Source of the DNA: Planctomycetota bacterium
GTDB taxonomy: Bacteria > Planctomycetota > UBA1135
Reading direction: 5' to 3'
DNA length: 64,000 nucleotides
Assembly: GCA_027623295.1 (NCBI GenBank)
Contig: JAQBXR010000008.1
Location: 1 to 64,000, forward strand
Part shown: piece by piece, positions 53,474 through 62,681 of the stretch
Layout: the number at the start of each line of letters is the position of its first letter
How positions within the stretch are numbered: position 1 is the stretch's first letter
The notes under the pieces: model-generated
The model's input: the letters and a program-made list of their open reading frames with translations, nothing else
What the model was told of the DNA's origin: nothing
Databases searched by the model: none
Made by a program: the position numbers and the translations under genes

Positions 53474-56194
53474 CTAGAGCTGCGACCAGCGCTTCAGCAC
53501 GTCTTCCAAAATGCCGCGGTGGACCGGCTTGGCAATGTAGTCATCCATGCCTGCAGAAAGGCACTTTTCACGGTCGCCTTGCATAGCATTGGCGGTCATT
53601 GCAATAACGGGGACATGTGATTTGCCCGCCTCCCCCTTGCGGATGGCAGCCGTCGCTGCATATCCATCGAGCACTGGCATTTGACAGTCCATGAGCACAG
53701 CGTCGTATTTTTTCACCGAGACGGCATCGCGCGCTTCCGCTCCATTGGCGGCAATGTCGACCTCGCAGCCGAGGCCTTCGAGCATCTTAGTGGCAACCTT
53801 TTGGTTCACGAAGTTATCTTCGGCAAGCAAGATCCGAACACCGTTTAGTGGCCGGTAGCTCTCGGTTGCTTGAGGATTTTCCGCCTGCGGATTTCCCACG
53901 GTAGGCTTAAAACCGGGCCCTTCTCCCCGACTCAAAGCCTCTTCCGCAAGCGCGGACTCCACTTGAGCAAGTAGGGCTTCGACAGATTGGGCTTGGTCTT
54001 CTGGGGCAGGCATTTCCGCCTCAGGCTCCGGTTGAATCCTCCCCTGCACAAGCCCTTCCAGCAGGCGCGAGCGGCGCACAGGCTTCACCATGGATTCATC
54101 AATCACCTTCCGGTAATCCTCAGGAAACATGGAGCGATCACATACCGATGACAGGAGAACAATCTTGATCCCAGCATAGCGCTCATCGGCACGCACGCGA
54201 ACGGCAAGGCTGATGCCATCTTCATCCGGCATTTGGTAGTCCACGACCATGCGATCAAAGGCGTGACCATGGTGAGTGGACTCTTCCAACATTTGCCACG
54301 CGGCTTGCGCAGACTCCGCTTGTTTCACTTCACAATCCACCCCTTCTAGCTGCTTGCGCAATACTTTAAGATTGGTGATGTTGTCGTCCACGATGAGGGC
54401 ATGCAAGCCAGCCAGGGTGGCCTCCTCTCCCACGACTTCCTCAACTCCTTCCAGTGACATGCCATCGAGGCGCACGGTGAACCAAAAAGTCGAGCCCTTC
54501 CCGAACTCACTCTCGACACCCATTTCACCGCCCATCAACTCAGCGAGTTGGCGAGAGATCGTGAGGCCAAGGCCGGTTCCGCCAAAGCGACGCGTGGTGG
54601 AAGCATCTGCTTGAGTGAAGGCGCAGAACAAATTGTCAATCGCTTCCGGGCGAATGCCAATCCCGGTATCAGTGACTTCGAAACGGATGCGACCCGCATC
54701 CGACTTCTTCACGCGCAAAACCACTTCTCCACTCTCCGTAAACTTGATCGAGTTACCGACTAAGTTCGAGATGATTTGGCGTAAGCGGCCTGCGTCGCCC
54801 TCGACTATTTTGGGCAGGTCTTCTTCTAGATCGAGCAAGAGCTCTAGGTTCTTTACAGCAGCGTTGGAGCTTAATGCCGTAGCCGTATCCTCCAACATGG
54901 TTGATAAAGAGAACTGAACACTATCTAACTCTATCTTGCCGGCTTCAATCTTGGAAAAGTCCAGGATGTCATTGATGATGACCAACAATGCTTGGCCGGA
55001 ATGCAAAATGGTCTGTGAAAAGTCGGCCTGTTCTTCATCCAAATCGGTCTGGGAAAGCAATTCCGCCATGCCAATCACGCCATTCATTGGGGTTCGAATT
55101 TCATGACTCATGTTGGCAAGGAATTCGCTCTTCGCCTTATTCGCTTCCGTGGCATTGCGCGTAGCATCTTCAAGCTCACCCATCTGTTGACGTATTTGCG
55201 CCGACATCCGAGAGAAAGAAGAAACAAGTTGACCGACTTCATCTTTACCTGAGTCCTGGAAGTCCACCGTGAAATCACTACTCCTGATGGAACTCTCAAT
55301 CTTCGCGGCAAGTTTTCGAATGTGATCTAAACGGCGCCCAATGACCAGTAAACCTGCGATTAAGAATAAGGCACCTAACCCAGCGGTGGTCACTAAATAG
55401 TTGCGCGTCGAAGCACTGAGTGCAATCGCGTGCTGCGTGCGGTCAGCGATAACCTGTACCAGAACTCCCGTAGAACCTTCAAACAGTAAAATCTGGGCAA
55501 AACCACCATGCACCAAGTCCTCTTGGATGCCATCCATCTCACCATCCATCATCTCCAATCGCTTCACCTCAAGGGGGTCGGTAGAAACCAACTCCCCCAG
55601 TGGAGTCGTAATCACCACCGTGTTACCAATGCGCTCTTCAAACAATTCAATTAGGGCACCTAGGTCTGCTTGCACAGCAATCCAGCCAAGAACTTCTTGA
55701 CCATCGCGCATAACGGGCTGCAATAAAACCGGAGCGCCAGAAGCGCTAGCCTGAATTTGGGTTTTTGTGATTTGCTTTAGATCAAAGTCATCCCGCAAGA
55801 AAAACTTTTCATGTCCACCTGGACGGGGACCAATCAGGGCGGAGATGGGAGCGGTATTTGCTCCAATAATGCTCAGCTCTTCCACCGAAGAGCCCAAGGA
55901 ATGGTCGCGGAAATAGGCACTCAAATAGCGCTGCAGCCCTGGCGCATTGCCCTCTTCCAGCAAGCTTTTCAATTCCGGTTCCGCGCTAATACCTTCGACG
56001 AGGTCCATGGAATTCCTTTCCCATTCGGTTTCCTGTCGTGACCAAAGCGCTGAATAGACCTGCGAAACCTCCTTGCTGTGCAAGGAATCCAGACGGTCAT
56101 GTACAGCGTTCCAGCCAATCCACGAAATAAACGCGGTGCCTGCTACAAGGAAGCAGGCCCAAACGGCGGTTTTGAAGAGGAGGCTTTGATGCAT
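53474..56194 (-). CDS. Hybrid sensor histidine kinase with two receiver domains
   Basis: This 906-residue protein has TM1 at about 8-28, a periplasmic CHASE-like sensor (30-260) and TM2 at about 266-287. Then follow HAMP (about 288-340), HisKA with His364 in [15 protein letters not shown] and HATPase (about 465-585; [19 protein letters not shown]). REC1 (about 605-720, Asp in [11 protein letters not shown]) and REC2 (about 785-905, Asp in [12 protein letters not shown]) complete it. There is no HPt domain, so a separate phosphotransfer protein must exist. It reads the same way as the importer operon and ends 51 bp before it, so it may sense a related signal, but this is only positional. Confidence 0.92.
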
Positions 56195-56283: not shown

Positions 56284-56766
56284 ATGCGAAAAGTATTTTC
56301 TTTGCTTATCACCCTGGGCCTAGTCGCTGCGCTTTGGTGCAGCCTCTTTTCCTGCACTAGCCTCCAAGGGGAGATGGCACCCCCATTGATGGGTGGAACG
56401 CAAGTCACCGATGGCCTCATTTTGGCCGATTCAGAAACGCCTCAAACCGAATGGCGACTACTCGCCTTTTTCAGCCCCACCTGAAGCCCTTGCGTGGCCG
56501 AAGTGCCGCATCTCGTGAAGATGCAAAAAGAGTTTGGTGGAGAAGATTTTTCCGTAGTTGGACTCATGCAGGGAAACGCTCAAGCAGCCAGCCAGTTCTC
56601 CCTTGCTCAGAAACTGAACTATCCGATCTTCGCCAACAGCAAAGACTTCGACGCCTACGATGTCATGTTCTTGCCGGTCACCTACCTGGTGGACCCCTCT
56701 GGCATGATTGTGGCCGATGACCTTGACGATGCTGAAAAAATTCTCGCGCAACGCTCCGTCCGATGA
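56284..56766 (+). CDS. Selenocysteine-containing TlpA/thioredoxin-like lipoprotein (UxxC)
   Basis: From ATG 56284 the frame stays open for 160 residues apart from one TGA at 56482-56484, codon 67. Around it the protein reads RLLAFFSPT-U-SPC-VAEVPHL, exactly where TlpA/ResA proteins have WCxxC followed by (A/E)E(M/V)P. Cys70 is retained, so this is a UxxC redox motif. The cis-proline LPVTYLVDPSG follows as expected. A lipobox (SLFSC, Cys24) places it outside the cytoplasmic membrane. Homology continues without frame change on both sides of the TGA, which argues for selenocysteine rather than a nonsense mutation. The stop overlaps the next gene by 4 bp. Confidence 0.85.
56491..56510 (+). promoter_or_regulatory. 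Candidate bacterial SECIS stem-loop after UGA67
   Basis: TGC (56491-56493), bulge GT, GGC (56496-56498), loop CGAAGT, GCC (56505-56507), GCA (56508-56510) form a 3+3 bp stem with a bulge. The apical loop begins 15 bases after the UGA and has G at its second position. This is close to the usual bacterial SECIS geometry, though slightly short. It was folded by eye. Confidence 0.5.
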
Positions 56767-58574
56767 ATAGCTGCACTCCACTTCTGCTGCTTAGCGCTTT
56801 GCTTTTTGCAAATGGAACCGATGCTGTTGCACAAAACTCCACCGAAAAGATTCGTGAAACACCAAGCACACTTGCGCAGAGTGTTGGGTCAGGAGTGGAG
56901 TGGAGGACTGATTTATCAACCGCCATTGAGGATGCAAAAAAATCTAAGAAGCCCATCTTCTGGTATGTGCATACCTTGGAAGGCAGCTTCATGGATCGAC
57001 AGCCAGAGGTGGACCGCTACATGATGGGTGGTCCTTTTAGTTGGCCCGCCATGGTCCAGTTATTGAACGAAGATTACATCCCGTTGCGTTTAGCGGCAGA
57101 CCGTAAGTTGTGCAAAAAATATGACCTTGCACCCGTACAGTTCATTGAACCTGGGATTCTAGTTTTGAGCTCTAGCGGAAAGGAACAATCACGCTTGGAT
57201 CGCATTACCACCATGCACCCTGGATGGTTTCAAACGCAGTTCAATCTCCATTTAGGGGAGGTTTCTAATTTTCCTGGAAGCTTGGGAGAGGAGCGGTGCC
57301 TTCAGTTTTACCAAGAGATTCCAGCTTCGGAAACTTCTCAAGAATCATTCTCTAAGGCGCTTGCCGAACTCGATTCAACCCATCAAGCGGAAGCCACTTG
57401 GCTATACGCCGCGGGCTTGCATGACTTGCGCAAGGAGCTTGCCGCACAGGAAGTCCTGAAGGGCATGCTGAATCAATTCCAACATCACCCGCTTGCTGCA
57501 AAAGCCGCACTTGAACTGGAAGGGCAAGGACCGTACTGGAGAGGGTTCGAATCTTACGATGCCATCCCATTGGAGGCACTTGCGGCAAACAATTCGGGAA
57601 CGCTTGCACCTGCTGGCGCCTTCAGCGTGAAGGGTGTGGAAGAACGCTCCGTTGCGTTTTTGGCACGCACGCAGTCAGAAGACGGTGCCTGGCGCGACAG
57701 CATCTATGACTTTGGCGGCACTGACAGCATGCCCAATGTCTACGCTGCCGTCACTGCAATCAATGCACGGGCTCTAGTGGGGAAGGCCAACGCAAGCGAA
57801 ACCCTGAACCGCGCACTGAAGTACTTGGCATCGGATGACATCTTGAATCTAGAGGATCAGGACGAGCTTATCTGGGCTTACCTCTACCGAATTCGTTTGT
57901 ACTGCGCCATCCTCGAGCAAAAGGGTCCACCCGCCGAGGGCATCGACAAGCTGCTCAAGCACAACGTGAGTGGGCTGGTTGCCATGCAGGCCAAAAACGG
58001 ATCTTGGTCCCACGAATATCAAAATCCTTTTGTGACTGCATCGTGCCTAATCGCTCTATTCGACGCTTCTGGGAACCGTGCAGATCCGGAGAATTTGGAG
58101 GGCATCGTTAAGAGTGCACTAATTCCACTGGAGAATTCGCGCTCCAAAAAAGGTGCTTATAGCTACAACCTTGGCAACAGTAGCTCCCCTCTTGCGGGCA
58201 GTGTAGGTCGGACTCCGGTTGGTGAGCTTGCGCGATACTTCTGGGGTGTGTCCAATAAGAAGGACCTTTCGAATGCGGTCAGCAATAGTTTTCGCGAGCA
58301 AGAGCCACTGTTCCTTGCACGCAAATATGACGACCACACCGACATGCATGCCTACGGCGGCTTCTTCTTTTGGTACTCCATGCTCGGACGCACCGAGGCG
58401 ATTGTGGAATTGCCGAAAGGAAAACAGCGCGAGCAAGCCATCGCGCAACAACAAGAACTCATTCTTGCCTTGCCCGAGATCGATGGAGTCTTCATTGACT
58501 CGCATGAACTCGGGCGTAGTTACGGCACCGGTATGGCGTTGTGGTGCTTAGACTTACTCGCTGAGAAAGACTAG
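56763..58574 (+). CDS. Secreted protein: thioredoxin-like head plus alpha/alpha-toroid repeats
   Basis: This 603-residue protein has a signal peptide (cleavage near VAQ, about 24). A thioredoxin-like N-terminal region (about 45-160; EDAKKSKKPIFWYVHTLEG) lacks a CxxC. The C-terminal region (about 280-600) has repeats such as VAFLARTQSEDGAW, VAMQAKNGSWSHEYQNPFVTA and YSYNLGNSS, resembling terpene-cyclase/prenyltransferase toroids. The catalytic DxDD of squalene cyclases is absent. It is translationally coupled to the UxxC selenoprotein, so the pair may act together in the periplasm. Confidence 0.65.
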   Translation: MNSCTPLLLLSALLFANGTDAVAQNSTEKIRETPSTLAQSVGSGVEWRTDLSTAIEDAKKSKKPIFWYVHTLEGSFMDRQPEVDRYMMGGPFSWPAMVQLLNEDYIPLRLAADRKLCKKYDLAPVQFIEPGILVLSSSGKEQSRLDRITTMHPGWFQTQFNLHLGEVSNFPGSLGEERCLQFYQEIPASETSQESFSKALAELDSTHQAEATWLYAAGLHDLRKELAAQEVLKGMLNQFQHHPLAAKAALELEGQGPYWRGFESYDAIPLEALAANNSGTLAPAGAFSVKGVEERSVAFLARTQSEDGAWRDSIYDFGGTDSMPNVYAAVTAINARALVGKANASETLNRALKYLASDDILNLEDQDELIWAYLYRIRLYCAILEQKGPPAEGIDKLLKHNVSGLVAMQAKNGSWSHEYQNPFVTASCLIALFDASGNRADPENLEGIVKSALIPLENSRSKKGAYSYNLGNSSSPLAGSVGRTPVGELARYFWGVSNKKDLSNAVSNSFREQEPLFLARKYDDHTDMHAYGGFFFWYSMLGRTEAIVELPKGKQREQAIAQQQELILALPEIDGVFIDSHELGRSYGTGMALWCLDLLAEKD

Positions 58575-58577
58575 CGA

Positions 58578-59210
58578 CTAACTGTCGTCAACTTCACCGG
58601 TGAGGGTGTGATTGCCAAAGCGATCCATAGAGACGAACTCTTCGAAGTCCAACAAACCCATCCGTGGACGAGCAGCAGTCAACGCTTTGCCCAAGGTAAT
58701 CATCAGTAAGGGTGGGTGATCTTCTGGTAAGCCAACGATTTCTGCGACTTTCACCGGATCAAACCCAATCATAGGGCAAGTGTCGTATCCCATGTCCTTT
58801 GCCAACAGCATCATGGTCATGCCGGCCAGACCAATCGTGCGCGCGGCTTCATCGCGCTGAATGGCGCCGTTCGAGTAAAAACCCGGAATCATGCCGCCGA
58901 ACATTTCTTTCACTGCGTCGGAAGCTTTACGCAGAGTGCGGTCTATGTTGGTGTGGCCATTTAGATTGCCCGCGCAAATAATCGTGGCTGAAGCGTCTTT
59001 CACCTGCGCTTGATTCCACGCTGCTGCGCACAACTCATCTTGCACTGCCTGATCGGTCACCACTACAAAATGCCAGTTCTGCATATTGAAAGAGGTTGGG
59101 GTTAGAGCGACATGAGCCATTAGATGGCGAATCTCGTCTTCACTCAGGCGATGTTCGGAATCGTAAGCCTTTACAGACCGACGTTGACGGAGGGCATCGA
59201 GCAATTCCAT
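58578..59210 (-). CDS. Nitroreductase-family FMN oxidoreductase
   Basis: This 210-residue protein begins LLDALRQRRSVKAYDSEHRL with the FMN-binding RRSV(R/K) motif. It continues TPTSFNMQNWHFVVV (FMN-phosphate and ring contacts) and GYDTCPMIGFDP, the nitroreductase core. It is likely an NAD(P)H-dependent flavoenzyme acting on nitro compounds or quinones. A TAATAT hexamer (59217-59222) ends six bases before the ATG, inside the stop of the adjacent SDR relic. Confidence 0.88.
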   Translation of the reverse strand: MELLDALRQRRSVKAYDSEHRLSEDEIRHLMAHVALTPTSFNMQNWHFVVVTDQAVQDELCAAAWNQAQVKDASATIICAGNLNGHTNIDRTLRKASDAVKEMFGGMIPGFYSNGAIQRDEAARTIGLAGMTMMLLAKDMGYDTCPMIGFDPVKVAEIVGLPEDHPPLLMITLGKALTAARPRMGLLDFEEFVSMDRFGNHTLTGEVDDS

Positions 59211-59655: not shown

Positions 59656-60216
59656 ATGAAAAAAATCGCACTCATCGCTGCCTGTGCAGCACCTCTTTTC
59701 GGCTCCTGCGTGGTAGCCGTCGGCAATGGCACCCACGCCAATGATTGGACGTACGACCTTGAGGTCGAGAAGGCCGTTTGCGTGATTCGCGGCACCGAGG
59801 GCAACGAAAATGTCACCGGCACGGTCACTTTCACCGAGCATAAAGACGGCGTTTTCATTGAAGCGCGCATTACCGGTCTCGCGCCGGGCGCACATGGCTT
59901 CCACATCCATGAGTTCGGTGACCTCTCGACCACCGATGGCAAGTCGGCTGGCGGGCACTACAACCCAGAAGGCCATGACCACAGCGGCCCTTCTTCCACG
60001 AAGCGCCACGAAGGCGATCTAGGCAACATTGTGGCCGATGCTAATGGGGTAGCTGAGTACTCGCGTTACGACGACGACCTCAATCTCGTCGGCAAGCACT
60101 CCATCCTCGGACGTGGTGTGATCATTCACGCCGGCGAAGATGACCAGCGCAGTCAGCCTACCGGTAATGCCGGCGCTCGCGTCGGTTATGGCGTGATTGG
60201 AATCGCTCAGCAGTAA
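59656..60216 (+). CDS. sodC: Cu/Zn superoxide dismutase lipoprotein
   Basis: This 186-residue protein has a lipobox (LFGSC, Cys17). Metal ligands are in GFHIHEFGD (two Cu His), GGHYNPEGHDHSG (bridging and Zn His) and HEGDLGNI (Zn Asp). The active-site arginine is in TGNAGARVGYGVIG. Both cysteines of the usual intramolecular disulfide are missing: no Cys after FGD, and the final RxxCGVIG reads RVGYGVIG. It removes periplasmic superoxide. No -10 hexamer at leaderless spacing was seen. Confidence 0.93.
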   Translation: MKKIALIAACAAPLFGSCVVAVGNGTHANDWTYDLEVEKAVCVIRGTEGNENVTGTVTFTEHKDGVFIEARITGLAPGAHGFHIHEFGDLSTTDGKSAGGHYNPEGHDHSGPSSTKRHEGDLGNIVADANGVAEYSRYDDDLNLVGKHSILGRGVIIHAGEDDQRSQPTGNAGARVGYGVIGIAQQ

Positions 60217-61657: not shown

Positions 61658-62668
61658 CTAGAGCTTTTCCAATTGCACATCACGGGCACCCTCAAAGAAG
61701 GCCTTCCAGCGATTTCCAAGCCAGGCCGTGGCTGGAACTTGCTCCAACTGTGAGCCTTTGAGTTCGCCAGCAAGGCACGTGCCGGTCATGCGAGACCACA
61801 GGCTGCCGGTCTCGAAATCGCGCATGAGAGGTTTGGCTCCTTCGGTTTCTGGATCGGCGGCAAGAGCCGCAAAGTGGAGTTGACGCTCTCCAATCTGACT
61901 ACGAAAAGCCACCGCATAGACCGCATCTTGATCAAAGCAAACCACGAGCGGGGCATCGAGCAAAGTGGTGTCCAAAACCGGCAACCGACTGAGCAAGGAA
62001 TAGCGGAACAGGGTGACGTTGCGCCCCTCCCCAACCGAAAGCCCGAAACTGGAAATCCGGTCCTTCAAGGTGAAGGTTCCCATCATGCCGCTCACCTTCT
62101 CGCCGAGCAGTACGCCGGTGTCAGGGTGGCGCTTTTTCCAAGTCTTGTACGGCATGATCTCGGAAGGAATGAAGCCAAGCTTTTTACCTTTCAGCTCCCC
62201 CTTCAGGGCTTCGCCCGTCACATGCAACCATTTCGAATTGGTCTGCTTGTCATACATCATAAAGGAGTTACGGTAGAGCACGCCCTCGTGCCCGAAGTTC
62301 AAAACCTGTCCATCTAGAGTGCGGCCATACACGATGGCCGTTTGGCAAAGCGGTCACCAACTCACCGCGACAGGAATTTCGCCGCAGGTGTCGTTGACTA
62401 ACTCCACACCGCCCATGACCGAAATCGGATAGGCGCGCGCTTCCCCACCTAAGAAGAGGCCGATGACCGGTTCCTCGGGATCGATCTCGAGGCCAGTTTC
62501 CAGAACCGTGGCCATGGGTGGATGATGCAAGACGGGAAACTGATCTGGCGCCATGACCTGACGCATTCCCTTGTCATAGTTGGCTTCACTGAACACATCT
62601 TCCGTCTGCGCGGAAAGTCCAGTAACGCTTGCCGCGGTAATAAAAAGAATGGTGGCGATGGAGCGCAT
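61658..62668 (-). CDS. Selenocysteine-containing DUF3179 periplasmic protein (UxxC)
   Basis: This 336-residue protein starts at ATG 62668 (signal peptide MRSIATILFITAASVTGLSA). One in-frame TGA occurs at 62356-62354, codon 105, within GEIPVAVSW-U-PLC-QTAIVYGR. DUF3179 proteins have VtYCPLC at this point. The first cysteine is replaced by UGA and Cys108 is kept. Before the UGA are EARAYPISVMGGVELVND, and after it YRNSFMMYDKQTNSKWLHV and LLGEKVSGMM, all DUF3179 segments in the same frame. The function of DUF3179 is not established; the UxxC site suggests redox or metal chemistry. A TATGAT hexamer ends 7 bases before the ATG. Confidence 0.88.
62322..62340 (-). promoter_or_regulatory. Candidate bacterial SECIS hairpin after UGA105
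   Basis: On the minus strand CGGCCAT (62340-62334), loop CGTGT and ATGGCCG (62328-62322) form a perfect 7-bp stem. The apical loop starts 21 bases after the UGA and has G at its second position. Distance and loop fit the known bacterial SECIS model. Confidence 0.65.
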
Positions 62669-62675
62669 GTGTCCC

Positions 62676-62681
62676 ATCATA
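62676..62681 (-). promoter_or_regulatory. -10 hexamer (TATGAT) of the DUF3179 selenoprotein gene
   Basis: It ends seven bases before the ATG at 62668. It overlaps two upstream in-frame ATGs, which supports the downstream start. Confidence 0.4.

Follow-up and report, generated by a model that had tools for sequence, protein, structure and literature searches.

An in-frame UGA at codon 67 of a short planctomycete gene is almost certainly read as selenocysteine (Sec), a reading that draws on the Sec machinery genes of the genome, the conservation of the UGA, purifying selection and a covarying hairpin. The product is very probably a membrane-anchored, extracytoplasmic selenoprotein of the TlpA/ResA type with a UxxC motif, to which Sec would be delivered via SelB and the hairpin. 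The gene lies in what we refer to as the window, a 64,000-nucleotide stretch of contig JAQBXR010000008.1 from a Planctomycetota metagenome-assembled genome (MAG; assembly GCA_027623295.1), and its features are listed together with its neighbors in Table 1.

Table 1. Positions in the window of the Sec lipoprotein gene, its predicted functional sites and neighboring genes.
Feature	Position	Strand	Basis or remark
Sec-TlpA/ResA-like lipoprotein gene (predicted)	56284..56766	+	160 codons with UGA read through; terminator TGA 56764-56766
Putative lipobox Cys24 (LFSC, residues 21-24)	56353..56355	+	sequence pattern, by eye
UGA codon 67, predicted selenocysteine	56482..56484	+	frame and aligned TGA of orthologues
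Cys70, second (resolving) Cys of UxxC	56491..56493	+	invariant in orthologue alignment
bSECIS-like hairpin GCAUCU-CGUGA-AGAUGC (mRNA)	56508..56524	+	geometry and covariation
Pro131 in LPVTY, aligned with ResA LPTTF	56674..56676	+	alignment to orthologues and ResA
Divergent hybrid sensor histidine kinase gene	53474..56194	-	named by eye
Gene of 603-aa protein (toroid)	56763..58574	+	ATG overlaps the lipoprotein TGA terminator by 4 nt
Presumed nitroreductase-like gene, convergent	58578..59210	-	provisional name
Second selenoprotein gene (predicted), DUF3179	61658..62677	-	TGA 62354-62356 at VSW-U-PLC; start 62677 chosen by eye

The initial annotation had described a 160-codon frame with a lone TGA, and this is borne out: the TGA at 56482-56484 is the sole interruption of the frame from 56284 to 56763, which ends on a terminator of its own. 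The codon sits in the motif FFSPT-U-SPC-VAEVP (USPC). It had been placed at the first redox Cys of a TlpA/ResA motif, and position 67 indeed falls on the first Cys of WCEPC in ResA, the best solved relative by sequence. Because the ResA match spans codon 67, homology flanks the TGA on both sides in the same frame as claimed, and the second Cys, which was said to be retained, is invariant among the orthologues. Ordinary gene calling yields two fragments of 93 and 90 aa, the split that had been foreseen; annotation pipelines would therefore divide the gene and miss its relatives. By eye, the N-terminus looks like a lipoprotein signal that would serve as a membrane anchor. A pattern similar to LFSC, L-x-[AS]-C, is found in most orthologues, while L032 is without the Cys.

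With Cys placed at codon 67, the best Pfam match of the protein is PF00578 (44.1 bits, cut-off 26). The NCBIfam models for ResA (NF002854) and TlpA (NF047696) score 39.4 and 26.1 bits, below their respective cut-offs of 170 and 230 bits. An AlphaFold2 model, computed with six orthologues as input, has a mean pLDDT of 84.8, and ResA/TlpA-type thiol:disulfide oxidoreductases lead a fold search with this model, in which some peroxiredoxins also rank. We take Pro131 to be the cis-Pro that a thioredoxin fold would be expected to have.

We next consider function, where a ResA/TlpA-like reductase role is the prediction that we somewhat favor. SelA and SelD would make Sec on tRNA-Sec(UCA), and SelB, on the hairpin just past the UGA, would deliver it at codon 67. 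Outside the cytoplasm, the Sec67 selenolate may attack a disulfide or an oxidized thiol, and Cys70 would resolve the selenylsulfide. A DsbD-type membrane protein could then re-reduce the lipoprotein, and a DsbD_TM protein is encoded in the genome. The outcome would be an envelope reductase that acts fast on disulfides (or on sulfenates/peroxides). It is unlikely that the protein instead has a peroxidase-like function, on the peroxiredoxin side of PF00578. Although this family is the top Pfam match and peroxiredoxin structures appear in the fold search, the UxxC aligns with the CxxC of ResA, and the genome encodes Sec-peroxiredoxins separately (L066 and L069), their U being the peroxidatic residue.

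The UGA is conserved among close relatives. A search of 26 genomes of the family found an orthologue in eight (at least 198.6 bits, the next match scoring 68 bits), each with one TGA, and these TGAs form a single alignment column. Likewise, the best 11 matches in 101 genomes have exactly one TGA each. To avoid bias at the codon, named genomes were scanned with only the post-TGA part as query, which gave seven loci. Four of these appear to correspond to relatives already in the set, and L062 (isolate 8_bin.1) is a ninth orthologue from outside the family set, again with the TGA. The remaining two, L064 (27% identity) and L065 (23%), are Cys proteins from Phycisphaerales and lie outside the clade. 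Codon 67, the position at which the initial annotation proposed to align homologues, is thus TGA in all eight family orthologues and in L062, and no other residue occurs among them.

The sequence past the TGA is under purifying selection. Between L028 and L029, dN is 0.079 and dS 0.70 in this part, with 7, 4 and 33 changes at codon positions 1, 2 and 3; between L025 and L026 the values are 0.30 and 1.51. It could be argued that the TGA is a plain stop, arising from a nonsense mutation, pseudogene or assembly error, with the downstream frame decaying. A deletion remnant of the gene does exist in G003, a genome of the same genus, and errors occur in MAGs, as the internal TAG of a nitroreductase relative (L125) illustrates. 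However, the same TGA recurs in orthologues from separate MAGs, selection persists beyond it and no further internal stop was seen in the orthologues, which makes this explanation very improbable. The gene itself is dispensable, since it is lost in G003 and 18 of the 26 family genomes have no orthologue that scores as high as those eight. A plasmid collection gave only six matches, all distant.

The source MAG, G000, comprises 2.45 Mb in 34 contigs and is 87.8% complete. All four genes of the Sec system, for which a search had been suggested, are present: selA (472 bits), selB (284.9 bits, or 310.2 including a C-terminal piece; cut-off 242), selC (a tRNA-Sec of 71 bits, cut-off 47, with the anticodon tca (UCA) according to ARAGORN) and selD (303 bits), which has its own in-frame TGA near the N-terminus (SSG-U-AAKLP). 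The genes selC and selD share one contig. Among G000 and 100 relatives, selB scores above the cut-off in 93 of 101 genomes. The eight in which it falls below are G008, G021, G023, G053, G056, G079, G087 and G099; apart from G056 (89% complete), none of them exceeds 81% completeness. A genome-wide reassignment of UGA, for example to Trp or Gly, would also leave the frame open. We consider such a variant code scarcely credible, given that ResA has Cys at this site and that a complete Sec system is present. Furthermore, the lipoprotein gene itself ends on TGA, and so do 21 of the 53 long ORFs of the window, which shows that no general reassignment of the codon has taken place.

A small bulged hairpin at 'nearly' SECIS distance had been reported downstream of the UGA. 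The hairpin is present, but it is unbulged, with a 6-bp stem and a 5-nt loop that has G in second and U in third place, and its loop starts 29 nt past the UGA, inside the 16-37 nt of the bSECIS model. According to the available text of PMC13188914, this model further specifies a loop of 3-9 nt with G in the first two bases, a stem of 4-16 bp and a minimum free energy (MFE) of at most -7.5. The geometry of the hairpin agrees with the published model. The energy criterion depends on the stretch that is folded, since the hairpin alone reaches -5.6 kcal/mol, compared with -7.1 in context and -10.7 for a 44-nt segment.

Covariation supports the stem. Across 11 clade sequences there are 7 two-sided changes, against 2.6 after shuffling, and 0 of 500 shuffles scored as high; 83.3% of cells are paired (71.3% shuffled), and the true register scores 0.309 whereas slid registers score 0.003-0.170. 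Across 27 Sec sequences, 15 two-sided changes compare with 6.7 after shuffling, although kinship among sequences can inflate all such counts. In L028 and L029 the consensus stem is broken, and a shifted hairpin with one mismatch is found instead. Folding of single sequences was no stronger than that of synonymous shuffles (L025, p=0.105 in the strict and 0.134 in the looser scan), and a 59-nt segment folded no better than its shuffles (z 0.35). Against synonymous shuffles, the strict hairpin scan of 24 TGA genes gave a weak combined signal (Fisher p 0.035), and the looser scan gave p 0.009 for the TGA genes vs 0.93 for eight Cys homologues; hairpin energies of TGA and Cys genes were not clearly apart (Mann-Whitney p 0.086). 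The single-sequence tests are weak because the conserved VPHLVQ peptide itself biases codons toward a hairpin. Given the weak shuffle signals, the case for a SECIS element therefore rests on covariation. An Rfam search of a 600-bp region returned no SECIS-type match.

It may be that the UGA is also a selenium-gated regulator: when selenium is lacking, translation would stop at codon 67 to give a short lipopeptide, or Cys would be inserted. Bacterial Sec codons in general show such selenium-dependent behavior, and a divergent sensor kinase adjoins the gene in several relatives. Nothing here, however, separates a switch from constitutive Sec insertion, and we regard a switch as rather improbable. 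By tblastn, the kinase is a neighbor in 5 of 12 other loci (L026, L027, L029, L032 and L036) and the toroid gene in one (L036). The latter encodes a protein with no Pfam match and only weak similarity to squalene cyclases. The initial annotation had coupled the lipoprotein to this toroid-domain partner. The two genes adjoin only here and in G003 (L036/L127), where the toroid gene is kept at 73% identity and the Sec gene is reduced to a 39-codon deletion remnant. The toroid gene is therefore a local neighbor and not a conserved partner, and we rejected a two-gene Sec/toroid module.

Elsewhere in the neighborhood, a nitroreductase gene immediately follows the Sec gene in six relatives (L026-L030 and L032). 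In the nitroreductase relative at L125:9667-10296 (G004), codon 69 is an internal TAG, which points to either an error or a pseudogene. Between the two selenoprotein genes of the window is a gene that by eye resembles Cu/Zn superoxide dismutase (59656-60216, + strand), a match to which is also present in L126 and L127.

To look beyond the family, 392 genomes of the phylum were searched, and 16 had a match at E <= 1e-17. Among these, L109 is a further UxxC member of the clade. L110 (1732-1785, - strand), from outside the order, has two in-frame TGAs in a UPVU (UxxU) motif, possibly a diselenide active site. The hairpin GCGCCU-CGUGC-AGGCGC follows the UPVU. L108 and L114 have Leu at the Sec site with the second Cys kept, while L111 and L112 have Gly and the second Cys is gone; these four have likely lost redox activity rather than changed Sec to Cys. 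After repeats and short alignments were taken out, the 72 loci listed gave 60 domains for a tree, whose 102 columns are few and limit the inner forks. One clade of 18 rows has U in 14, Leu in 2, Gly in 2 and Cys in none, and the 42 rows on the other side contain 23 U and 19 Cys (split support 99/97). The motifs of L106 and L102 are odd, and their branches are long. Codon 67 is thus free of unrelated residues within the family, as the initial annotation would have it, but farther out four of the 18 clade members have Leu or Gly, which limits the claim.

The queries carried Cys, so that Cys members would have scored better, and the absence of Cys from the clade is therefore no search artifact, though limits of sampling and of the E-value still apply. 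Tentatively, the clade may be a Sec-only group of exported planctomycete TlpA-like lipoproteins that has no Cys form and in which selenium is obligatory. Where Sec was lost, it would have given way to Leu or Gly and the enzyme would have been abandoned, and at least one branch would use UxxU. In this proposal, the whole order, probably oxygen-respiring, would keep Sec mainly for envelope and peroxide redox. If true, a Sec protein without a Cys form lets one ask what selenium does that sulfur cannot.

The lipoprotein gene is one of several apparent selenoprotein genes in G000. In the DUF3179 gene (190 bits), the TGA takes the place of the first Cys of CPLC (UxxC), and it is kept in all four relatives with the gene (L123, L125, L126 and L127). 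A fifth stretch, L124, has no DUF3179 match though about 9 kb continue past the preceding gene. Of the 12 PF00578 matches in G000, five have an in-frame TGA: the lipoprotein gene itself, a 2-Cys-type peroxiredoxin (L066) and a Bcp-like one (L069), both typed by eye, and two TlpA-like WUGPC proteins (L070 and L075). Together with selD (L056) and the DUF3179 gene, this makes seven selenoprotein genes. The number is a lower bound, and a census of TGA genes in the window, which missed the lipoprotein gene itself, is not exhaustive.

This setting is less expected than the class of the protein: the 2.45 Mb MAG combines seven selenoprotein genes with a gene for cytochrome oxidase (COX1, 468.5 bits). 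In the available text of PMC5029168, species with at least six selenoprotein genes are termed selenoprotein-rich, and 78.3% of them are given as anaerobic; by this definition the MAG would count as selenoprotein-rich, yet it encodes an oxidase. Reviews including PMC5029168 describe, in their available text, rich bacteria as mainly anaerobic Thermodesulfobacteriota, Clostridia and Synergistota, with aerobes rarely retaining selenoproteins. A planctomycete order in which selB is nearly universal, and of which the one genome examined encodes several Sec redox enzymes and a cytochrome oxidase, would be a useful counter-case to this pattern. Sec systems of planctomycetes are already in print, as the accessible part of PMC4807772 gives six putative selenoproteins in one planctomycete isolate. 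The term 'planctomycet' does not occur in the available text of PMC13188914, PMC9312934, PMC9402790 or PMC5029168, and the accessible portions of the open-access literature on planctomycete selenoproteins, including PMC8938466, contained no account of this lineage.

The exported UxxC thioredoxin had been called unusual. However, the available text of PMC13188914 lists PF00578 UxxC/UxxU, redoxin UxxC, UGC TlpA and DUF3179 UxxC/T selenoproteins, and that of PMC9312934 also lists PF00578 and DUF3179 selenoproteins; the lipoprotein is therefore a new member of an already known selenoprotein class. With Bacillus ResA (PDB 1st9/2h1b) it shares the thioredoxin fold, the position of the first redox residue, the LP-T motif and a Glu three residues past the second Cys, at the place of ResA E80, but ResA has Cys where Sec is predicted here, and the score against the NCBIfam ResA model stays below its cut-off. 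The UGC TlpA selenoprotein (cd02966; available text of PMC13188914) likewise has an exported TlpA-like domain with Sec, whereas its catalogued motif is UGC and the motif here is UxxC, in a protein that scores low against the TlpA model. Also comparable are the peroxiredoxin-like thiol:disulfide oxidoreductase selenoproteins of PF00578, examples of which (e.g., WP_010940744.1) are set beside the lipoprotein by their description. They share with it the domain, the UxxC, the in-frame UGA and the downstream hairpin, and a UxxU relative (L110) exists on the planctomycete side too. What differs is that the present protein belongs to a clade of planctomycete lipoproteins in which no Cys form was seen.
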